Of a stretch of 29,616 nucleotides of DNA, positions 1 through 27,906 are shown piece by piece. The notes beneath the pieces are model-generated. The model saw only the letters and a list, made by a program, of their open reading frames with translations. It was not told the origin of the DNA and searched no databases. The position numbers were made by a program, and so were the translations under genes. Position 1 is the stretch's first letter, and each line of letters begins with the position of its first letter. The stretch is taken from IMG/VR virus record IMGVR_UViG_3300021076_000222, positions 1 through 29,616 of that record; one strand, 5' to 3'. The DNA is from a virus.

Positions 1-1776
1 ACGCAGTCCGCCGTCCTGAACACCATCGGTTACTACAGCCATTGGGAGCCGTCGCCGATTCTCTGCGTTCAGCCCAGCCTTGCCGAGGCGGAGAAATTCT
101 CCAAAAACCGCGTCGCCAAAATGATCCGCGATACGCCCGTCTTGCGCGACCTGTTCCCCTCGCCGCGTTCGCGTGACTCCGGTAACACCCTACTCAATAA
201 AGAATTCCCCGGCGGCATCCTCGTGTTAGTCGGCGCGAATGCTCCCGTCGGCTTGCGCGGCCTGCCCGCGCGCATCATCCTCATGGATGAAGTCGATGGT
301 TACGAGGCCTCCGCCGGCACGGAAGGCGATCCGGTTGACCTGGCGAAAAAGCGCGCGACAAAATTCTGGAATCGCAAAGTTGTACTGATTTCCACGCCGC
401 ATATCAAGTACCTATCGCGCATCGAGGCGGCCTATAACTCCAGCGATCAGCGCCGCTACTACGTGCCCTGCCCGCACTGCGGAGAAATGCAGCAGCTCGA
501 GTGGAAGCGGCTGCAATTCAAAACCGAGCCGGTCGAAAATTCCCGCCCGCGCGTGCTGTGGTATCACTACACCTGCATCAATGGCTGCATCATTGAAGAG
601 CGATCCAAGCATGAGATGATCCGCCGCGGCGAGTGGCGCGCCACGGCGAAATCTCATGACGGCAAGACGGCGGGCTTCCAACTCAACGCGCTCTATGGCG
701 TGGTGGACTGGCTGGACCTCATCCGCGAATGGCTTGAGGCGCAAACCAACTTAGAGCGCATGAAGGTTTTTATTAATACCAACCTCGCCGAGACGTGGGA
801 GATTCGTGGCACCGGCGCGAATAACTCCGAGCTGGAAAAACGTCAGGAAGATTTTCACGACAAACTGCCCTCCGGCGTCCTCTGGCTCACCGCCGGAGTG
901 GATACCCAGGATGATCGCCTGGAATGCAGCCTCTACGGCTGGGGCCTCGATGATGAGCGCTGGGCCATCGAGCATAAAATTTTCCCCGGTGATCCATCCT
1001 TGCCGGACTCGGACCCGGCCAGCCCCTGGGCCGCGCTCCGCGCGTATCTGCTGGAAGAGTGGGAACACGCCAGCGGAGTTACCATGCGCATTGCCGCCGC
1101 GCTGATTGATTCAGGCGGCCATCACACTGAGCGAGTGTACGAATTCACGCGCAAGCACGAGGCGCGGCGCTGGCACGCCATTGTGGGCCGCGCTGGCATT
1201 GGCCGTCCGCTGCTCAGCTCCGGCACCCGCGTCGGGCCGTACAAAACGCTGCTCTACACAGTGGGCGTCGATACCGCCAAAGAGGATGTTTTTACCAGCT
1301 TCCGAGTGACCGAGCCGGGGCCGCAATATTGCCACTTCAGCAACACGCTCACGCCGGAATTCTTCCGCCAGATCACGGCGGAAAAGCTAGTCAAAACTAC
1401 TCAGAATTTTCAAACCACGATGCGCTGGGTAAAAACCTCCGAGCGTAACGAGGCGCTGGACTGCGCCGTCTACGCGCGCGCCGCTGTAAGTGTGCGCCGT
1501 CCGAACTTCCGCAAGCTGGCGCGCAGCCTCTTCCGGCTGACGGAAAAACTGCGCCACGAGCGCGAAGCCGCCGGTCAGCCCGCGCCCAAGCCGGAAGACG
1601 AGATGATCGGCCCCGCAACCGCGGTTGTTTCTCCCGCGTCCGCTCCCACTGCTGGTCATTCTGAGCGACCGAAGGGAGCCGAAGAACCTGCGGCTGTTGC
1701 TCCCAAACCCGCGCCTGCCAAACGCAAGCGGGCAAACATTGCCGCCCAGCTTCGCGCCCTCAACCGTCTGCGGTGA
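1..1776 (+). CDS. Phage terminase large subunit, GpA family (5' end cut by window)
   Basis: ATP-driven motor and nuclease that cuts concatemeric phage DNA and packs it into the prohead. The reading frame is open from base 1; the first ATG (121) is internal, because the residues before it (IGYYSHWEPSPILCVQPSLA, about 4-82) match the family's early ATPase region, so the Walker A and perhaps 50-90 residues lie upstream. Visible: Walker B DEVD at 286-297; a zinc-ribbon-like CPHC (469-480) and CINGC (about 571-588); nuclease motifs GVDTQDDRLE (895-924), IDSGG (about 1105) and NEALDCAVYA (about 1447-1476). The C-terminal 70 residues are Ala/Pro/Lys-rich and contain an in-frame copy of a dispersed repeat (1654-1699). 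It heads the visible late operon, in the order terminase, connector, portal as in lambda A-W-B. Family assignment is secure; cos or pac packaging cannot be told from here. Confidence 0.95.
   Translation, partial: TQSAVLNTIGYYSHWEPSPILCVQPSLAEAEKFSKNRVAKMIRDTPVLRDLFPSPRSRDSGNTLLNKEFPGGILVLVGANAPVGLRGLPARIILMDEVDGYEASAGTEGDPVDLAKKRATKFWNRKVVLISTPHIKYLSRIEAAYNSSDQRRYYVPCPHCGEMQQLEWKRLQFKTEPVENSRPRVLWYHYTCINGCIIEERSKHEMIRRGEWRATAKSHDGKTAGFQLNALYGVVDWLDLIREWLEAQTNLERMKVFINTNLAETWEIRGTGANNSELEKRQEDFHDKLPSGVLWLTAGVDTQDDRLECSLYGWGLDDERWAIEHKIFPGDPSLPDSDPASPWAALRAYLLEEWEHASGVTMRIAAALIDSGGHHTERVYEFTRKHEARRWHAIVGRAGIGRPLLSSGTRVGPYKTLLYTVGVDTAKEDVFTSFRVTEPGPQYCHFSNTLTPEFFRQITAEKLVKTTQNFQTTMRWVKTSERNEALDCAVYARAAVSVRRPNFRKLARSLFRLTEKLRHEREAAGQPAPKPEDEMIGPATAVVSPASAPTAGHSERPKGAEEPAAVAPKPAPAKRKRANIAAQLRALNRLR
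1654..1699 (+). repeat. Dispersed 'GTCATTCTGAGCGA' repeat inside the terminase gene
   Basis: Begins GTCATTCTGAGCGACCGAAG and ends GAACCTGCGGCTGTT. It is read in frame as GHSERPKGAEEPAAV. The same family recurs at 4440-4499 inside another gene. The short direct repeats GCGGTTGTTTCTCCC (about 1621) and GCGGCTGTTGCTCCC (about 1690) flank it. I recall this family as a common intergenic repeat in Acidobacteriota; that part is memory, not a search. Confidence 0.75.
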
Positions 1777-2656: not shown

Positions 2657-4426
2657 ATGAATTCAAAGCGACCAAACCTTGTAACTCGCACCTTCCGCGC
2701 CGTGTCGAAAGGAATCACTGCGGCGCGGCGCACGCTCACCTCGGATTCGACTCTGGCCCAGCTTGGCGGCTCCAGTGGCTTGCAGGGCTTCAACGCCGCC
2801 AAGATGGGCCGCCTCACCATGGATTGGCCCACGGCCTCGCGCTCCGCCGATCAGGATTTGTTGGTTGATCTGCGCCGCCTCCGCGCCCGCGCGCGCAATC
2901 AGGCCGTCAATAGCCCCATCGCCTCGCGCTTTCTTTGGATGCTGCGCTCCAATGTCGCGGGCAAAGATGGTGTGCGGCTTACCTTCAAAATCCAGCAGCA
3001 GCGCCAGCGCAAAAGCAAAAATGGAATTCCGCTGGATGACGCGGCTAACTCGGAATTACGCCAGGCATGGTGCGAGTGGGGAAAGAAAGGCTCTTGCACT
3101 GTCTGTGGCCGCTACTCTTTGCGCGAGGTCGAGCAGCTTATTACGGAAAATGCCGGTCGTGACGGCGAGCAGTTCATCCGCAAGGTCTATGTGCCGAAGT
3201 CGGTCAATCCCTTCGGCTTTCAGTTGCAACTGATCGACGCTGACCAGGTGGACGACACTTACAACCTGATGGGCCGCGCGGACGGCGTCCAGGTGCGCAT
3301 GGGCGTCGAGGTGGACCAATACCAGAAGCCCATCGCCTATCACATTTTCAAAGGCAATCCATACGAGGCCAGCTTTGGCAGCTCTCTCCGCCAGCGCGTG
3401 CCCGCCGATCAAATCATCCATTGGATGATTGCCCACCGCACCGGCCAGACGCGGGGCTATCCGTGGATGGCCGCGGGCATGGCTCAGCTCAATATGCTCG
3501 ACGGGTATTTTCAGGCGGAGTTATCCCGCTCCCGCATCAACGCGGCGCTGCTAATGTCCATCGAAACCGACAAAGACGCGGATGAGGACGCGGACGAAGT
3601 TGAGGCTGATGGCATCAACGCGGATGGCAGCAAGGCGATTGATATTGGCAACGGCAGCGCAATCGATCTGAGTGGCACGGGCGCGCACTTGCAAGATCAC
3701 ACGCCCAGCAGCCCGAACAATGCTTTCGACCCGTTCATGAAGCAATCCGGACGGCTGATTGCCTCCGGTCTCAACGTGCCCTACCACTCGCTTTTCAATG
3801 ATCTGAGCGGAGTGAATTATAGCTCCGCGCGCATCGGCGAGTTAGAGGTTCGGGAGTTTTGGATGGAGGTGCAAAACTCTCTGATTGATAACGTCCTCGA
3901 TCCGATCTTTGATGCGTGGCTCGGCGCGGCGCTGCTGAATCGCGCGGTTGATCTTCCGCTCGCGGATCGCAAGCGTTTCACCGGCGAATCGCTTAAATGG
4001 GAGGCGCGCCGCTGGCCGTGGATTGACCCGCTCAAGGATGTGCAGGCAAACACCCTGCTCGTGCAAAACGGTTTCGATAATCACGAGCACATCCTCAATA
4101 GCATGGGCCGCGATCTGGAAGACACTTACACCGCGCTCGCCCGCGAGCAGGAGCTGGCGGACTCGCTTGAGTTAGCTCTTGGAACCGATATTCGAGGCCA
4201 GGGAACAAGTGAAATCAATAACTCGGATGAAACGCCAGAGGACGATGAACAGCAGCCAAAAGAGGGCGATGAAAAGCCGCCCGCCCAACCGGCGGTCAAG
4301 CCCGCCAAGCCAAAAACAAAAACGCCTCATGCGCCTGCAAAGCCAAAAGCCCGTGAGCTGGAACGCGGGATGCACCCGGCCAACGCAGCCATCTGGAACT
4401 TAACCACTGAAGAGGAGAAAGAATGA
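2657..4426 (+). CDS. Phage portal protein, lambda family
   Basis: 589 residues; forms the dodecameric ring at the capsid vertex through which DNA enters and leaves. The N-terminal half has the lambda-portal signature (DLRRLRARARNQAVNSPIA followed by SRFLWMLRSNVAGKDG, about residues 71-105), and the second half has LNVPYHSLFNDLSGVNYSSA (about 373-392), the family's most conserved stretch. The last 85 residues are a charged, Pro/Lys/Glu-rich tail ending in NLTTEEEKE. Start ATG 2657 follows GAGGGAAG by about 8 bases. Its stop overlaps the next gene's start (ATGA at 4423-4426), implying translational coupling. Downstream, the protease and capsid are in the expected order. Confidence 0.95.
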   Translation: MNSKRPNLVTRTFRAVSKGITAARRTLTSDSTLAQLGGSSGLQGFNAAKMGRLTMDWPTASRSADQDLLVDLRRLRARARNQAVNSPIASRFLWMLRSNVAGKDGVRLTFKIQQQRQRKSKNGIPLDDAANSELRQAWCEWGKKGSCTVCGRYSLREVEQLITENAGRDGEQFIRKVYVPKSVNPFGFQLQLIDADQVDDTYNLMGRADGVQVRMGVEVDQYQKPIAYHIFKGNPYEASFGSSLRQRVPADQIIHWMIAHRTGQTRGYPWMAAGMAQLNMLDGYFQAELSRSRINAALLMSIETDKDADEDADEVEADGINADGSKAIDIGNGSAIDLSGTGAHLQDHTPSSPNNAFDPFMKQSGRLIASGLNVPYHSLFNDLSGVNYSSARIGELEVREFWMEVQNSLIDNVLDPIFDAWLGAALLNRAVDLPLADRKRFTGESLKWEARRWPWIDPLKDVQANTLLVQNGFDNHEHILNSMGRDLEDTYTALAREQELADSLELALGTDIRGQGTSEINNSDETPEDDEQQPKEGDEKPPAQPAVKPAKPKTKTPHAPAKPKARELERGMHPANAAIWNLTTEEEKE

Positions 4427-5346
4427 ACAAAATCAAAAGCTGTCATCCTGAGCGACCAGAGCGTAGCGACGGGAGTCGAAGGACCTGCGGTTGTTTTTCT
4501 ATCCTGAGAGTCGCTTTTATCGTAATCATGTTGCTCTGCGCGTATGCGTCCCTGCCCGCGCAAACCGTCACCGTCACCGCGTCGAGCTTTTCCGACAGCT
4601 CCGGCAATCTGATTACCGGGCAGTTGTGGTGGCAGCCCACCTTGCTCGATGGCACGCCCGCAAGCTATCGCCTCGGCAGTGGCGGCCAGGTTACATCCTT
4701 GCCGGTGAGTGTCTATGTCCAAAAAGGAGTGCTCTCGCTCACCATTGCGGATACCTCTCTGACCAGCCCGGCCAACATCTGTTTCCGGCTCTCGCTTACC
4801 ACCACGCTCAGCAAATCCGCGCTCGGCCCCGGTTACAGTTGCGTCCAGCCGCATAGTGTCGCCACCGGAACCACGGATTGGTGTCAGGCCGGTATTTGCA
4901 ATCTGGATGACTACACGCCCAACCTGCCCGCGCTGCCCATTGCCTATGTCTCGCCGGATTTGATGAGCGCCTGGAATGTTGCGGCGGCGGCCTACATCAG
5001 CGCCGGGAACACTGTCACGCAATCCACGCTCACGGATGCGGCCACGGTGACCGACGCCACCGGCGGCGCGCTGATGAGTGTCGCCACGCTCTCGCTGACC
5101 AGCACGCCGTCGCGCACCATCAATGTCACCGGCCTGGTCCCTGGCGCGCGCTTCGGAGTCCTGATAAGCACGCTGGATTCTGGCACGGCGCGCACGGTGA
5201 CTTTCGGCTCCGGATGCGCTTGGCAGTTTGCGCCCGGCGCGGTGGTCTCCGGTAACACGCTGAACATTCCGCCGTGGGCCAACTGGAGTTACTTCGCCTA
5301 TTTCATCTATGACGGCACTAACTGCATTGGCATGGTGTCTGACTAA
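4423..5346 (+). CDS. Putative exported protein, paralogue of the tailspike N-terminus; function unknown
   Basis: 307 residues. ATG 4423 overlaps the portal stop and has a strong ribosome binding site (GAGGAGAAAGA). A hydrophobic core (ILRVAFIVIMLLCAYASLPA, about 27-46) before Q47 looks like a Sec signal peptide ending ...SLPAQ. A basic stretch of 19 residues (6-24) before that core is encoded by a dispersed repeat (4440-4499); removing it leaves MNKIK joined to FSILRV, a normal signal peptide. Residues about 47-170 align by eye with residues 20-147 of the protein at 22996: AQTVT, GGGQVTS, P-N-C, CVQP/CLQP, WC and CNLDDYTP/CNLDNYSP are shared. The C-terminal 85 residues (SRTINVTGLVPGARFGVLIS through FIYDGTNC) resemble a small beta-domain of phage surface proteins. 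A signal peptide between portal and capsid genes is unexpected. It could be a decoration protein, an envelope protein made late, or an anchored receptor; I cannot decide. Confidence 0.75.
   Translation: MNKIKSCHPERPERSDGSRRTCGCFSILRVAFIVIMLLCAYASLPAQTVTVTASSFSDSSGNLITGQLWWQPTLLDGTPASYRLGSGGQVTSLPVSVYVQKGVLSLTIADTSLTSPANICFRLSLTTTLSKSALGPGYSCVQPHSVATGTTDWCQAGICNLDDYTPNLPALPIAYVSPDLMSAWNVAAAAYISAGNTVTQSTLTDAATVTDATGGALMSVATLSLTSTPSRTINVTGLVPGARFGVLISTLDSGTARTVTFGSGCAWQFAPGAVVSGNTLNIPPWANWSYFAYFIYDGTNCIGMVSD
4440..4499 (+). repeat. Dispersed 'GTCATCCTGAGCGA' repeat inside the 4423 gene
   Basis: Begins CTGTCATCCTGAGCGACC and ends GACCTGCGGTTGTTTTT. It encodes SCHPERPERSDGSRRTCGC (57 bases, a multiple of three) and lies five codons after the start. 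It is the same family as 1654-1699 but longer in the middle. Confidence 0.8.
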
Positions 5347-7436: not shown

Positions 7437-7450
7437 GTCAAACCTCTAAT

Positions 7451-7482
7451 GGGTGCCCCAGGTCCGGATTTTCGGACCTGGG
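7451..7482. repeat. Hairpin repeat H2 (GGGTGCCCCA family, AGGTCCG stem)
   Basis: Same 32 bases as H1: stem CCCAGGTCCG / CGGACCTGGG, loop GATTTT, 14 bases after the capsid stop. It is followed by a TTCACTG heptamer tract (7485-7506). Confidence 0.85.
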
Positions 7483-7484
7483 AT

Positions 7485-7506
7485 TGTTCACTGTTCACTG
7501 TTTCAC
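7485..7506 (+). repeat. Heptamer tandem repeat (TTCACTG)
   Basis: Units GTTCACT GTTCACT GTTTCAC between hairpin H2 and the next gene's ribosome binding site. Confidence 0.65.
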
Positions 7507-7517
7507 GAAAGGAACAA

Positions 7518-7820
7518 ATGCTTACATCGAGTAACAAGAATGAGCCGGTCCAGGCCGTGCTGCGCGTCAGTATGATCGTTGACCGCAAGCCGCGCGAAAA
7601 GGGCGAAGTGGTGGAGCTTTCGCACCGCGATTTTGTCTATCTCCACACTCACAACCGCGTGGCCGAGGCAACCAAGGAAAACATCGAGGCCGTCGAGGCT
7701 GAGATTGAATCCGAGCGGGAAGCCGCGGAGCGCGCCGCGCAGCCCACTGAGGCTGATGCGCTGCGCGAAGAGAATGCCCAGCTCAAGGCCGAACTTGCCG
7801 CCGCCAAGAAAGGCAAGTAG
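7518..7820 (+). CDS. Small hypothetical protein with C-terminal coiled coil
   Basis: 100 residues from ATG 7518 (AAAGGAA just upstream). The frame opens earlier at 7449, but that part is the hairpin repeat H2. Residues about 12-50 (VQAVLRVSMIVDRKPREKGE) look like a small beta-domain; residues 56-100 are a Glu/Ala/Lys-rich helix (EAEIESEREAAERAAQPTEA followed by DALREENAQLKAELAAAKKG) likely to form a coiled coil. It follows the capsid gene, where decoration or connector proteins are usual. I do not recognise a family; cytoplasmic, probably virion-associated by context only. Confidence 0.75.
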   Translation: MLTSSNKNEPVQAVLRVSMIVDRKPREKGEVVELSHRDFVYLHTHNRVAEATKENIEAVEAEIESEREAAERAAQPTEADALREENAQLKAELAAAKKGK

Positions 7821-7838: not shown

Positions 7839-7894
7839 GGGTGCCCCACCCTCGCCGCGTCTTTGTTTTTTGCGGCTAGGGTGGGATACCTCGA
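7839..7894. repeat. Hairpin repeat H3 (GGGTGCCCCA family, CCCTCGCCGC stem)
   Basis: GGGTGCCCCACCCT, GCCGC, a T-rich loop, GCGGC, then AGGGTGGGATACCTC. The stem differs from H1/H2 but the flanks GGGTGCCCCA and TGGGATACCTC are the same. Lies between the genes ending at 7820 and starting at 7914. Confidence 0.85.
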
Positions 7895-9210: not shown

Positions 9211-9263
9211 GGGTGCCCCACCCTCGCCGCGCTTTTGTTTTTGCGGCTAGGGTGGGATACCTC
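9211..9263. repeat. Hairpin repeat H4 (GGGTGCCCCA family, CCCTCGCCGC stem)
   Basis: Almost identical to H3; GGGTGCCCCACCCTCGCCGC, a T-rich loop, GCGGC, AGGGTGGGATACCTC. A GTG inside it (9213) opens the frame of the next gene but is not a credible start. Confidence 0.85.
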
Positions 9264-9284: not shown

Positions 9285-10028
9285 ATGTCTGCCGTTGCCG
9301 CCACTGTTACCGTCACCCCTGCGCAATCCAGCATCGTGAATACGCAGACACTATCCGTGCTGATTGCCGTCGCTGGCACGGGCGCAACGCCCACCGGCGC
9401 TGTAGCTCTCACCTCCGGCACTTACGCCTCGGGCGCTATCACGCTGGTTGGCGGCTTCGCCACCATCAACATCCCGGCGGGTTCGCTCGCCATCGCCGCC
9501 AGTGACACGCTCACGGCCACTTACACGCCAGACAGCGCCAGCACGACCGCTTATCTCACGGCCACCGGCACGGCCACGGTCAAGGTAGCTGCGGTGGTTG
9601 TCTCGCTGCCCGCCAAGCTCCAAGGCTACCTGGCGCAGCTTGCCTATACCTCCGCCAGCGGCGCGAATGTAATCGTGGCCGGCCTGAAGGAACTCGATGG
9701 CGGCTTTACCGTCGAGGAACTTGACTCCACCGATCACAGTAATAACGGCTGGAAGTCGCGCATGGCTGGCCTGAACGATTTCGACGGCTCGGCCAAGCTG
9801 GACTATATTGCTGGCGATAACTCGCAGACTTATCTGCTGAACGCAGTGCTCAATCATACGTCGCTCAACCTCACCCTGCTCCCGACCGATGTGGCTGGCT
9901 CCGGCGTACAGTCGTTTGTCGGCCCGGCCATCATCACCGCCTGGAAGTGGGACGGCAAGAATACCGACCTGCAAGGCGTTCAGATCACCCTCAAGGGCAA
10001 CGGGCCGTTCTCGGTCGTCGCTCAATAA
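9285..10028 (+). CDS. Major tail tube protein with N-terminal Ig-like domain
   Basis: 247 residues from ATG 9285 with AAAGGAGAA upstream. Residues about 5-105 are a bacterial Ig-like repeat of the kind found in surface proteins (GTGATPTGAVALTSGTYASG then ASDTLTATYTPDSAS and TGTATVKV). Residues about 110-247 are the tube subunit: LAYTSASGANVIVAGLKELD, VEELDSTDHSNNGWKSRMAG, LDYIAGDNSQTYLLNAVLNH and ITLKGNGPFSVV; this 'eld.Td......r..g' pattern is typical of phage tail tube proteins. The tube stacks as hexamers between the head and tip. Lambda gpV carries its Ig domain at the C-terminus; here it is N-terminal. A strong terminator-like hairpin follows (10099-10132), fitting a protein needed in high amounts. 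Confidence 0.85.
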   Translation: MSAVAATVTVTPAQSSIVNTQTLSVLIAVAGTGATPTGAVALTSGTYASGAITLVGGFATINIPAGSLAIAASDTLTATYTPDSASTTAYLTATGTATVKVAAVVVSLPAKLQGYLAQLAYTSASGANVIVAGLKELDGGFTVEELDSTDHSNNGWKSRMAGLNDFDGSAKLDYIAGDNSQTYLLNAVLNHTSLNLTLLPTDVAGSGVQSFVGPAIITAWKWDGKNTDLQGVQITLKGNGPFSVVAQ

Positions 10029-10098
10029 GCTCCGCTGGCGCGGGCTTCAGCCTTCCCCGCGCCGCGTTGAGGCCCGGTAACCCGCATCCACCGGGCTA

Positions 10099-10136
10099 AC
10101 AGGGGCGGCCTACCGCTCAGGCCGCCCCCTGTCTTT
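10099..10136 (+). terminator. Strong hairpin terminator after tail tube gene
   Basis: ACAGGGGCGGCCT (10099-10111), loop ACCGCTC, AGGCCGCCCCCTGT (10119-10132), with one bulged C, followed by CTTTA. The T-run is short, so termination may be partial; that would raise the tube protein level relative to the chaperones downstream. Confidence 0.65.
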
Positions 10137-10152
10137 ATAAGTCACAAATGTC

Positions 10153-10191
10153 GGGTGCCCCAGGTCCGGATTTTCGGACCTGGGATACCTC
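10153..10191. repeat. Hairpin repeat H5 (GGGTGCCCCA family, AGGTCCG stem with TACCTC tail)
   Basis: Stem CCCAGGTCCG / CGGACCTGGG as in H1/H2, but here followed by the GATACCTCGG tail of the other subtypes, which links the subtypes into one family. Confidence 0.85.
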
Positions 10192-10214
10192 GGAACTATG
10201 AGTTACAAAATGCC

Positions 10215-10259
10215 GGGTGCCCCATCCATCGCGTTCTTTGCGATGGGTGGGATACCTCG
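10215..10259. repeat. Hairpin repeat H6 (GGGTGCCCCA family, CCATCGC stem)
   Basis: CCCATCCATCGC, loop GTTCTTT, GCGATGGGTGGG (one G-T pair), then GATACCTCG. It begins 24 bases after H5, so two copies sit in tandem. It lies inside the upstream extension of the next frame (ATG 10198), which is why that start was not chosen. Confidence 0.85.
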
Positions 10260-18483: not shown

Positions 18484-18489
18484 CTATCT

Positions 18490-18533
18490 GGGTGCCCCAT
18501 CCATCGCGTTCTTTGCGATGGGTGGGATACCTC
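18490..18533. repeat. Hairpin repeat H8 (GGGTGCCCCA family, CCATCGC stem)
   Basis: Identical in stem and loop to H6, with the TGGGATACCTC tail. A copy 8 kb from its twin shows that the subtypes spread as units. Confidence 0.85.
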
Positions 18534-22995: not shown

Positions 22996-25446
22996 ATGAA
23001 AAAACTGATTGTATCTATGATGATCGCGCTGGCGTCGCTGGCCGCCAGCGCGCAAACCGTAACCCTGACCGCAAGCTCCATCAAAACGCTTTCCGGCACC
23101 ACGTTCACAGGCAAGCTCTGCATGGTCCCGGCCAATAACAATGGCACGGTCCTCAGCCACTTTCAATACGGCGGCGGTGGCCAGGGCGTCACGAGTCAGG
23201 TCTGCTATCAGGTCACCGCGGGCGCGCTGCAATCCGGCGTGACCGTGCCGGATACTTATCAGACCAATCCACAAAATCTTTGCCTGTACACGCAACTGAT
23301 TGATCCATCGCAGCCCCTCCAAAAGCGCGTGGTGGGCACATTCCCATGCCTTCAGCCGGCCAGTTCCGGTCAGAATTGGTGCTCCACCACGGGTGCCGTA
23401 ATCACCTGCAATCTGGATAACTACAGCCCAAGCGAAACGCCGGGAACGATGCAAGAGCCGGACGTGATGGGACCGCAGGGTCTGCCAGGCGGCTTGCCCG
23501 GCGCGATTGACATCAACACGCTCTCCGGCGCGGATTTTGGCGTCAAACTGAGCGCGTGTCTGGCTCGGCTGAGCACAACCTACGGCGGCATCTGCGAGGG
23601 TCGCAACCTGGGCGCGACGGCGCTGACAATGGCCTCCAGCGTGACTATTTCCACGCCCAACACCATCATCAATCTGCCGTGCGCGACGATAACAACGGCT
23701 CAGCAAGTCATCGTGCCGGCCGGTGTGCGCAATGTGACCATTCACGGCTGTGCCTACCAGGGGGGCAGCACGGCCAATGGCGCGGCGGGTGGCACGGTTT
23801 GGGTTTATACCGGCTCTGGCGCGGCCTTTGCCGTTGGCGATTCGAGTTATGCCGTCGATACCAAAGGCTTTTCATTCGACAATGCCAACCTGAACACCGC
23901 CAGCGCGGGCGCGGCCGGGTCGGCTTTCTACTTCTATCGCACCCAGGAAATCCGCCTCGACAATCTCTATCTGAATGGCAATCAACTTACCGGCCAGACG
24001 GCGGTCACGCTCGACGGCACGGGAGATTACTCCGGCGGCCTCTTCCAGAATGACACGCTGAACGGCTTCGGAACCGGCTTTCTGCTTACCGGCCATCTTT
24101 CCGGATCGGTCTCGGATGACTACGCCAACGCCTCGGTCTTCAACCGCGTGCGTATCATCTGCCCCACGTCCTCCGGCAGCCCGGTTGCCGGAACCTATGG
24201 ATTCAATGTTGCGGGCGCGGACGGCAACACGTGGAACGGCGGCGATGTGGAGGGTTGCTCGACGGCGATGCACCTGGGCGCGGCCGCCACCGGCAACACG
24301 ATTGTCGGGCTGCGGAATGAGAACTCGACTGCTCAGGCCGTTGCGGACTCCGGCAGCAGCTATAACTCATGGATTACCGGGGGCACAATGTTTACCGGCG
24401 CTCTGACGGATAATGGAACGCATAACACCTTTCTGGACGCCTTTCACCGGCAATTTAACTCACTTAACGGTGATCTCTGGCGCAGTCAAGCCGATGCGAC
24501 GGTGACCGATCACATCTTCACCGGCATTGGCCTGGGCAATGTGCGCGGGCGGCAAGTGGAATACCAGACGGATGTTCCCAACGCTGCCGGAAGTTATCGG
24601 AATGCTTGGCTCTGGGGGCCGGGCGACGGTACAAGCGGCGCGCAGGCCTGGGTGCTTCAGGATTTGCTTAATAACACCATCCGGCTCGGAATTCAGCAAA
24701 ACACCACGGCTGGCGAAAATAATCAGAGCTTCCTCAACGCGGCTGGTACCGGCAGCGTGTGTTTCAATTGCGGCGCTAACTCAGGCACGGGCGGAGTTAC
24801 CATCGGCAGCGGTGGCGCATCGCCGACGACCGTCGCGAGCTGGGATTCCAGCGGCAATCAGACACTCCTCGGCGGCTTGAATTTCTACTCAGGTACAACG
24901 CAAGCCTGGCAATGGAACTGCGCTCTTTCAGGCTCCTGCTCATTAAACAACAAGAACGCCACGACTCCCGCTCGTGTATTTGCAGCATGGACAAACGGTG
25001 GAACTGACATTGACAGCCAAACGACCAACGCCGTGACCATCAATAACACAAGCACAGGCGGTACAGGTGGATTCCTCGTCTATGAGGGCGGCGCAAATTA
25101 CAGCACGATAGCGTTCGGAGTGTCCGGTGCGGGAGCAACTAACCAAGCCGGAAACCATCAGACGGGCAGCGCCAGCGGGACCGGAAATGAAATTATCGGC
25201 AACCATCTGAATCAGATTGCCACCGCCGACTTCGCGGGAACTTGCACTATGTCCAGCTCGGCCACGTGTACCGTGTCGTTTCAGCACTCATGGACATCCA
25301 TACCCGATTGCCATGTGACCCCAATTGTCTCCGCCGCGCCGACTAACTACGCGGGCTACAGTTGGTCTACGAACGTGGTGACAGTTTGGGCCAATGCCAG
25401 TAACTCACTGACTTGGTCCGTAGTCTGTGTCGGCAACCCAAACTAG
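22996..25446 (+). CDS. Tailspike-like beta-helix protein with signal peptide and collagen-like linker
   Basis: 816 residues from ATG 22996 (GAGGTGA upstream). Residues 1-19 (MKKLIVSMMIALASLAASA) are a textbook Sec signal peptide cut near ASAQ. Residues 20-147 are the cysteine-bearing domain shared with the 4423 gene. A short collagen-like stretch GPQGLPGGLPGAI (159-171) leads into a parallel beta-helix (about 172-480: GADFGVKLSACLARLSTTYG, VTISTPNTIINLPCATITTA, VRNVTIHGCAYQGG, GFSFDNANLNTA, IRLDNLYLNGNQL), as in tailspikes and pectate-lyase-like enzymes. The C-terminus has small repeats and a last domain with four cysteines (GTCTMSSSATCTVSF, CHVTPIVS, SVVCVGNPN). It sits where lambda has its side-tail-fibre gene. 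A signal peptide is not expected in a tail fibre; either the fold is exported or the hydrophobic end anchors it to the tail. Confidence 0.8.
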   Translation: MKKLIVSMMIALASLAASAQTVTLTASSIKTLSGTTFTGKLCMVPANNNGTVLSHFQYGGGGQGVTSQVCYQVTAGALQSGVTVPDTYQTNPQNLCLYTQLIDPSQPLQKRVVGTFPCLQPASSGQNWCSTTGAVITCNLDNYSPSETPGTMQEPDVMGPQGLPGGLPGAIDINTLSGADFGVKLSACLARLSTTYGGICEGRNLGATALTMASSVTISTPNTIINLPCATITTAQQVIVPAGVRNVTIHGCAYQGGSTANGAAGGTVWVYTGSGAAFAVGDSSYAVDTKGFSFDNANLNTASAGAAGSAFYFYRTQEIRLDNLYLNGNQLTGQTAVTLDGTGDYSGGLFQNDTLNGFGTGFLLTGHLSGSVSDDYANASVFNRVRIICPTSSGSPVAGTYGFNVAGADGNTWNGGDVEGCSTAMHLGAAATGNTIVGLRNENSTAQAVADSGSSYNSWITGGTMFTGALTDNGTHNTFLDAFHRQFNSLNGDLWRSQADATVTDHIFTGIGLGNVRGRQVEYQTDVPNAAGSYRNAWLWGPGDGTSGAQAWVLQDLLNNTIRLGIQQNTTAGENNQSFLNAAGTGSVCFNCGANSGTGGVTIGSGGASPTTVASWDSSGNQTLLGGLNFYSGTTQAWQWNCALSGSCSLNNKNATTPARVFAAWTNGGTDIDSQTTNAVTINNTSTGGTGGFLVYEGGANYSTIAFGVSGAGATNQAGNHQTGSASGTGNEIIGNHLNQIATADFAGTCTMSSSATCTVSFQHSWTSIPDCHVTPIVSAAPTNYAGYSWSTNVVTVWANASNSLTWSVVCVGNPN

Positions 25447-26358: not shown

Positions 26359-26757
26359 ATGGAAAAGTCAACTTATGAGAATGGAGCAAGCCGCTCGGCG
26401 CTGGCTGAGCGTTATGACCTGATCCCGAAAGCGGCTATGGATGCGCTGGCGCGGCGGTTGGCTTTGGGCGCGGCCCAGCACGGCGAGAATAACTGGCGCG
26501 GCGGCGGCGAAGAGTTTCGCAAGGCCACGTTGAATCACCTCATGCGACATTTGCTCGATTACATCGAGAACGGGAATGCCAGCGACGCCAATACAGACGC
26601 CATCATTTGCAATGCGGCGTTTCTCGCTCACTTCGAGGTGCAAAAGCCGTTCAACCCGCGCGGATTGCCGCCAGACGTAGTTAAGGTGCTACTTACAAGG
26701 CCGCACAAAACACTTAGCGCGTTCAAGGCTGTCAAGCCGCGTTTCTCGTCATGCTGA
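26359..26757 (+). CDS. dATP/dGTP pyrophosphohydrolase-like protein (DUF5664, MazG-related)
   Basis: 132 residues from ATG 26359, GAGGAGTG just upstream; it starts 8 bases after the previous stop. The conserved parts are ERYDLIPKAAMDALARRLAL with 'GAAQHGENNWRGG' (about 18-50), the 'R.dLIP..al..~A....Ga.KYg..NW..G' pattern, and NHLMRHLLDYIENGNASDAN (about 61-80), the 'RHl.a...Ge..D' metal-site pattern. These proteins hydrolyse dNTPs to dNMPs in some phages. In phages with modified bases they sort with genes that change the dATP pool, but no such gene is visible here. The end overlaps the integrase gene on the other strand by 9 bases. Confidence 0.75.
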   Translation: MEKSTYENGASRSALAERYDLIPKAAMDALARRLALGAAQHGENNWRGGGEEFRKATLNHLMRHLLDYIENGNASDANTDAIICNAAFLAHFEVQKPFNPRGLPPDVVKVLLTRPHKTLSAFKAVKPRFSSC

Positions 26758-27906
26758 GATGTGTTCACGATAAGCATATTGACCATCTGACCTGACTGGC
26801 GCTTTCCGCGTCAGATCGATAGACTCCACCGCAATAAACTTCACGCGTGTGCGCTGATGTGCGTAGTATTCCATCATTTTATGACCCACGTGCCCGGCGA
26901 TAGCGATCACCGTCTCCGGATTCACATCGTTTTCCAGCAGCCGCGTGATGCAGTGGTGGCGCAGATCGTGAGGTGTCAGACTGACAAACCCCGTAGCTTT
27001 CCGCAAGTTATCCCAGCTTTTCCGCAGCCACCCTCGCGACGCCGGCCGCGTGGGGTCGAACTCGTTGCGAATCACGCGAAACGGGAAGAGGTAATGATCC
27101 GGTTCGCAGGAACCCAGCTTGAGCGCGCGCTTGAAGCATTGCTCAACCGCCCATTTTGCCGCGGCGTTCAATGGAATCTTGCGCGGACGATGATTGTTTT
27201 TCACCGCATCCTCTGGGATATAGATCTCCGAAATTCCATCTGTGCTCAAAAACCAGTCTTTGAGCCGGAGGCGGCGCAGCTCAATGCCTGACGCCGTGGT
27301 GTTGTTTGTGATGCAAGCAACCCAGTAGGCCAGCGCAGCCTCCGGATGCTGGCGTGCTACGCGGAAGAGCCGCTCTTCTTCGGGCTCGGTCAGAATGGTC
27401 CGCGGTGACCAACTGGGAATCGAAAGCGGAAAATAGAACGGCCTGATACGGTACCACAGTTCGCAGTGGTTCAGAACCATAGCCAAGACATTGACCTCAT
27501 GGTTGACCGTACCGTGCTGGCAGGTGTGTTTCCATGGATGCAGTTGCTGGCCGCCCACATTGAGCGAGTTACCCATGCGCGCAATCTGATAGGCGCGAAT
27601 CTGGCCGGGTGTAATATCGCATAGCCGCAGGTCACCAAAGAACACATTGAGATAGGTCTGTGTGGCCTCGTGAGCGCGCGGCTTGAGGGATACGGACTGG
27701 CGGCGCAACTGCATCCAATAGCGCGCCGCATCGCGGAAACATTTTTTGGCCAGATGCAGATTGCCGCCGCGCAACGCGGCGTCGGCCGCCTGGCACGCCG
27801 GGCAGTTGATGTGATCGATAGTGTGTTGCTCTGCAAATTTCGTTTCAGGTATACAAAACGGTGTAAATTCTACCCGAGTCTTCGTTGATTCCTTAAAATC
27901 GGACAT
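26749..27906 (-). CDS. int: Tyrosine-type site-specific integrase
   Basis: 385 residues from ATG 27906, GGGGAAAA upstream. Cuts and rejoins attP and attB to insert and excise the phage. The N-terminal half carries CPAC (35-38) in an otherwise unusual arm-binding region with extra Cys, and a core-binding helical region. The catalytic domain is complete: Arg211 (GIELRRLRLKDW), a Lys in the beta hairpin (VKNNHRPRKIPL), H313-x-x-R316 (TPHDLRHHCITRLL), His339 (IAIAGHVGH) and the nucleophile Tyr348 (MEYYAH). It sits next to the tRNA-Val fragment, as for phages that integrate into tRNA genes. The gene faces the late genes; the 129-bp gap to the next gene holds its promoter. Confidence 0.93.
   Translation of the reverse strand: MSDFKESTKTRVEFTPFCIPETKFAEQHTIDHINCPACQAADAALRGGNLHLAKKCFRDAARYWMQLRRQSVSLKPRAHEATQTYLNVFFGDLRLCDITPGQIRAYQIARMGNSLNVGGQQLHPWKHTCQHGTVNHEVNVLAMVLNHCELWYRIRPFYFPLSIPSWSPRTILTEPEEERLFRVARQHPEAALAYWVACITNNTTASGIELRRLRLKDWFLSTDGISEIYIPEDAVKNNHRPRKIPLNAAAKWAVEQCFKRALKLGSCEPDHYLFPFRVIRNEFDPTRPASRGWLRKSWDNLRKATGFVSLTPHDLRHHCITRLLENDVNPETVIAIAGHVGHKMMEYYAHQRTRVKFIAVESIDLTRKAPVRSDGQYAYREHISA

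Follow-up and report, generated by a model that had tools for sequence, protein, structure and literature searches.

An Acidobacteriaceae palindromic repeat in frame within the signal peptide of a phage fibre-like protein

The best-known palindromic repeats lying in frame within protein-coding genes are those of Rickettsia, whose genomes are reduced. PMC10969869 and PMC3733652 credit these Rickettsia palindromic elements (RPEs) to Ogata et al. 2000 and 2002, and excerpts of the latter paper report a CGTC tag for the RPEs of R. conorii. In the same excerpts the GTAG and CGTC families of intragenic repeats are given for other phyla, and Acidobacteria are named only for RAYT genes (PMC3733652). 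We analysed a viral sequence of 29,616 nt (IMG/VR record IMGVR_UViG_3300021076_000222, positions 1 to 29,616; referred to below as the window), which contains the following features.

121..1776, + strand, terminase large subunit (PF05876, PF20454, phrog_15)
about 1654..1698, + strand, repeat copy 2, within the C-terminal tail of the terminase large subunit and in frame with it, encoding GHSERPKGAEEPAAVA
2657..4426, + strand, portal protein (PF05136, phrog_21), overlapping the start at 4423 (ATGA)
4413..4425, + strand, Shine-Dalgarno-like AGGAG and ATG start, position kept in relatives with and without the insertion
4423..5346, + strand, insertion-carrying gene: 307-aa protein with predicted cleavage between ASLPA and Q and a tail-fibre-like C-terminal part
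4440..4499, + strand, repeat copy 1, inserted in frame and accounting for about residues 6-25 (SCHPERPERSDGSRRTCGCF), lacking in relatives except L003
4501..4560, + strand, hydrophobic core and c-region (residues 27-46): hydropathy peak ILRVAFIVIMLL, within the modeled helix 24-42, aligning with homologous signal peptides
22996..25446, + strand, paralogue of the N-terminal domain, whose signal peptide is of ordinary form (MKKLIVSMMIALASLAASAQ) and lacks the repeat; 33.5% identical to residues 28-181 by tblastn

The protein encoded by ORF 4423-5346 begins with MNKIKSCHPERPERSDGSRRTCGCFSILRVAFIVIMLLCAYASLPAQTVTVTAS. Repeat copy 1 spans 60 bp, or 20 codons, and lies after the start codon but ahead of the hydrophobic core. 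Its limits are the points where agreement ends among 15 host copies compared with their flanks. The sequence GTCATCCTGAGCGA is matched exactly at 4442, and with up to two mismatches this pattern has three matches in the window versus 0.2 expected. Hence, the dispersed repeat which the preliminary description had placed in frame within a signal peptide is indeed there. Its location was correctly given, while its size is 60 bp rather than 57 bases, covering about residues 6-25 rather than 6-24, and three cysteines (C7, C22 and C24) are added instead of two. The length gain is a multiple of three, as had been proposed, but it amounts to 69 bp (23 codons) and not 57 bp in comparison with relatives that have the same ATGA start. 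The frame is open in two phages differing by about 20% in DNA, which suggests that the insertion has been tolerated, as had been stated.

The family to which this repeat belongs was defined by the pattern GTCATYCTGAGCG-N(4,32)-CGAAGRACCTG. Of 11 Acidobacteriaceae genomes, 10 contained it, with 5-38 copies each and 183 matches in total, as counted on genome stretches, while a reversed control pattern had no matches in the same 11 genomes. The 15 host copies obtained by pattern search of GTDB contigs were all from Acidobacteriaceae, including Terracidiphilus, and they agree from YTGTCATCC to CCTGCGGTTGYTTTT, not beyond. Most copies are intergenic, and the middle of the repeat is variable, in some copies including another hairpin. 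In the outer stem, the Y and R positions covary (89 C-G, 7 T-A and 1 C-A; Fisher p = 6e-10), which fits the palindromic nature of the repeat ends. Among 109 copies, one forward frame was always stopped (0/109 open) and the other two were open in 104/109 and 94/109, while the reverse frames were open in 51-83; thus the repeat can be read through in most, although not all, frames. Rfam gave no match for the repeat, and a literature search returned nothing relevant on the repeat sequence itself. In the limited set of open papers searched, neither the family nor its setting seems to have been described. The phage is linked to such hosts by the flanking rsmI gene, which is 82% identical to rsmI of a genome with 38 repeat copies (G001). 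The segment 28395-28449, beyond the integrase-like gene 26749-27906, was recognized as a partial tRNA by Rfam (33.9 bits) and not by ARAGORN, and it could be an attachment-site remnant next to host rsmI.

The coding context of the repeat was assessed for 91 non-redundant host copies with enough flank, using a heuristic codon-usage score with an arbitrary cut-off. Coding-like sequence was present on both sides of eight copies, in the same frame on both sides in all eight. One of these genes, desampylase-like, ends inside the repeat (L064), and the other seven are read through. All but one of the seven (L092) were assigned by NCBIfam, as listed here by locus.

L029, TsaD
L041, NifS/IscS-type cysteine desulfurase
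L051 and L069, PyrB
L079, AcnA
L114, Era

In several host genes the NCBIfam profile match is split around the insert, and in PyrB and Era both the profile and the PDB alignments are split there. The corresponding loops of PyrB, Era and TsaD in relatives are short or filled with other sequence, and do not contain the repeat. Two further Era genes (L166 and L168) have a different palindrome (GGGTGCCCCAGGTC...GACCTGGGA) at the same loop, and Era of L114 contains both palindromes in tandem. As for PyrB, different-length versions of the repeat are located at the same loop in two genomes (L051 and L069); the frames of entry upstream differ, and the exit frame is the same (VEGPA).

The second Era palindrome resembles the intergenic repeat found in the window at 2522, 7448 and 10150. 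The latter belongs to a second hairpin family (GGGTGCCCCA...TGGGATACC) with at least seven intergenic copies in the window.

2522-2560, 7448-7486, 7839-7892, 9211-9263, 10150-10188, 10214-10258 and 18489-18533, copies of the second hairpin family

The mechanical start of ORF 7449-7820 falls in the copy at 7448-7486, and since the homologue in L003 begins with MLTSSNKN, the true start is probably an ATG near 7518. In one intergenic space the window has the second family (10028-10200) and L003 has a GTCATCCTGAGCG repeat (L003:5800-5913), which indicates that repeats turn over between close phages. The copy in the terminase gene is common to the window and L019, while other sequence is found there in L016-L018, L020, L002 and L012. 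One metagenome sample yielded both L019 and L003, and L019 stops within the portal gene a short distance ahead of the L003 start; the two contigs may be parts of one phage. The terminase gene itself probably starts before the listed position, and may be cut by the window.

Homologues of the 4423 protein in viral contigs are 38-79% identical to it, and a wider search of viral contigs found the gene at 35 loci. About two dozen of these are distinct, and only L003 (L201 in that search) has the repeat. The N-terminus of L003 is MKIPKSCHPERPERSGGSRRTCGCFYIVRIAFIVLALLCAYASLPAQ, with the repeat at the same codon as in the window. Signal peptides are of the ordinary kind (MKTLIRITLFTLAML...) in insert-free relatives that share the portal/ATGA overlap, as in L002 (MKTLIRITLFTLAMLCGIASLPAQ) and L004 (MKSLLRIAAITLAMLAGIASLPAQ), where the ATGA overlaps the portal stop and compared to which the window is longer by 69 bp. 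The preliminary description had predicted an exact empty site in homologues; the homologues with short, ordinary signal peptides were found, but the junction is not base-exact, because the flanking n-region codons have diverged. Because only L003 is occupied, and at the same codon, the insertion was most simply inherited by both phages from a recent ancestor. The insert is identical at 53 of 56 positions between the window and L003. Its excess conservation over the gene (about 77%) was considered and dropped, because the flanks beside it are also about 82-87% identical. Further into the gene the identity of the window to L003 falls to about 65% and is exceeded by that to L002, which lacks the insert, so that, judged from these alignments, the gene is a mosaic with the insert within the part shared with L003. 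Nothing close to this gene was found in GTDB contigs, and a family-level search gave only relatives of 30-42% in 11 of 200 genomes.

The C-terminal part of the 4423 protein, about 110 aa long, resembles phage fibre/tail domains, while the protein had no Pfam or PHROG match and no match at E <= 0.001 in a PDB structure search. In a low-confidence model (pLDDT 60) residues 1-23 are unstructured, and the helix 24-42 is followed by beta domains. The N-terminus has the features of a Sec signal peptide, which are a basic n-region (net +3), a hydrophobic core and a small residue at -1 (...SLPA before Q). The mean KD of the core is 2.94 in the window versus 2.0-2.7 in insert-free forms, the net charge of the n-region is +3/+4 with the insert versus +2 without it, and the predicted cleavage site is unaltered by the insertion. 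Sec-type signal peptides are present throughout this fibre-like family (4423-5346, 22996-25446 and homologues L002-L016), one gene of which sits between the portal and capsid genes. It is possible that the exported fibre-like protein is a secreted lysogenic-conversion or surface protein.

The preliminary description had noted that the extra residues would be ancestral coding sequence if all homologues had them. A long ancestral n-region, lost in other lineages, could explain why two phages share the insert at one codon; however, the segment is a copy of a repeat dispersed through the host genomes, and every other homologue, near or far, is short, L003 being the one close relative with the residues, which makes this explanation hardly credible. 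Somewhat less improbable, but still unlikely, is that translation begins after the repeat, at codon 28, in which case the repeat would be an untranslated leader and its open frame accidental. The product would then be MRVAFIVIMLLCAYASLPAQ, which is close to the homologues, and L003 has GTG at this position; a general warning about downstream starts in genes with N-terminal REPs is also contained in the excerpts of Di Nocera et al. 2013 (PMC3733652). However, the codon in the window is CTG, a weak start, and codon 28 is not preceded by a Shine-Dalgarno sequence, while ATG 4423 has AGGAG at 4413-4417 with good spacing. The ATGA overlap and the Shine-Dalgarno sequence are conserved in the window, L003, L002, L004 and L012, including the insert-free relatives, and ATG 4423 is therefore favoured as the true start on comparative grounds.

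The insertion could also be adaptive, the added peptide (GSRRTCG, a loose twin-arginine sequence) or a hairpin altering the targeting or translation of the fibre-like protein. The retention of the insert in two divergent phages and the position of SRR before the hydrophobic core would agree with such a role. On the other hand, the translation next to the core reads GSRRTCGCF, which departs after RR from the Tat motif S/T-R-R-x-F-L-K (consensus SRRxFLK), SRRTCG simply results from reading the repeat in this frame and recurs at unrelated sites, and the RNA folding of the inserted strand was no better than that of shuffles (z 0.15). We consider an adaptive role quite improbable.

The reading that we prefer, with a probability of roughly 0.82, is that a small, selfish palindromic repeat of Acidobacteriaceae was inserted in a recent common ancestor of L003 and the window phage and was tolerated in the n-region, in the manner of RPEs. 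In Sec signal peptides the n-region serves above all as a spacer with positive charge. A copy of the short dispersed repeat would have entered after the start codon, upstream of the hydrophobic core, and it would persist because the gain is a multiple of three, the frame has no stop, and the n-region is such a spacer. More generally, the repeat would insert or be copied widely, and selection would remove most arrivals within genes, while arrivals that keep an open frame, lengthen it by whole codons and lie at a tolerant site would survive. The signal-peptide n-region may be one such place, where the insertion is presumably neutral and the core and cleavage site stay untouched, so that the protein would still be exported. 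The 9 bp by which the net gain of 69 bp exceeds the 60-bp repeat count against this explanation. No target-site duplication was obvious by eye among the 15 host copies with flanks, and these included no recent empty/occupied pair with intact flanks; hence the transposition event is putative.

The insertion in the 4423 gene is one case of a wider process in which repeat DNA becomes protein. What was known from Rickettsia is here done by a different repeat in free-living soil bacteria with large genomes and in their phages, the sites being a signal peptide and core enzymes. We give slightly less than even odds to a tentative extension: essential genes of Acidobacteriaceae and their phages would continually receive in-frame insertions of several unrelated small repeats, loops such as those of Era, PyrB and TsaD would be refilled again and again with different repeats, providing a standing source of new protein segments in this family, and phages would share and perhaps carry the repeats. 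The natural pairs of occupied and empty sites form a test bed for the amount of extra sequence that is tolerable in the n-region of a signal peptide or in the loop of an enzyme. Annotators are also warned that a peptide like CHPERSEGSRR in an Acidobacteriaceae protein may come from a repeat and still be real.

Among small mobile repeats, prokaryotic MITEs (reviewed in PMC10969869) are similarly small, non-autonomous and able to form in-frame fusions, but a terminal inverted repeat with target-site duplication was not recognized here. The intragenic GTAG/CGTC REPs are, in the excerpts of Di Nocera et al. 2013 (PMC3733652), also short palindromes, mainly intergenic and with some in frame in genes, and different repeats may occupy one site of one gene. 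In contrast to them, the Acidobacteriaceae repeat has no GTAG or CGTC end tag: its ends are YTGTCATYC and CCTGCGGTTGYTTTT, with neither the GTAG tetranucleotide at the hairpin end nor the CGTC tag of R. conorii. Genes with the Y1_Tnp domain are present in 7/7 genomes examined, but none of 30 repeat loci had a RAYT-like gene beside it, with a partial motif in only one. Since it lacks the end tags and does not lie beside Y1 transposase genes, an identity as a RAYT-type REP was rejected. Like the RPEs, as excerpted in PMC10969869 and PMC3733652, the repeat is palindromic and dispersed, and it lies in frame in unrelated protein genes, including those of core metabolism, with the inserts absent from homologues. 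It differs in its host phylum, in its length (about 36-60 bp versus ~150 bp), and in being mostly intergenic, also phage-borne, and here located inside a signal peptide. Hence, by analogy, the repeat would work like an RPE, a likeness in behaviour; the kind of phenomenon is known, and the repeat family appears to be new.
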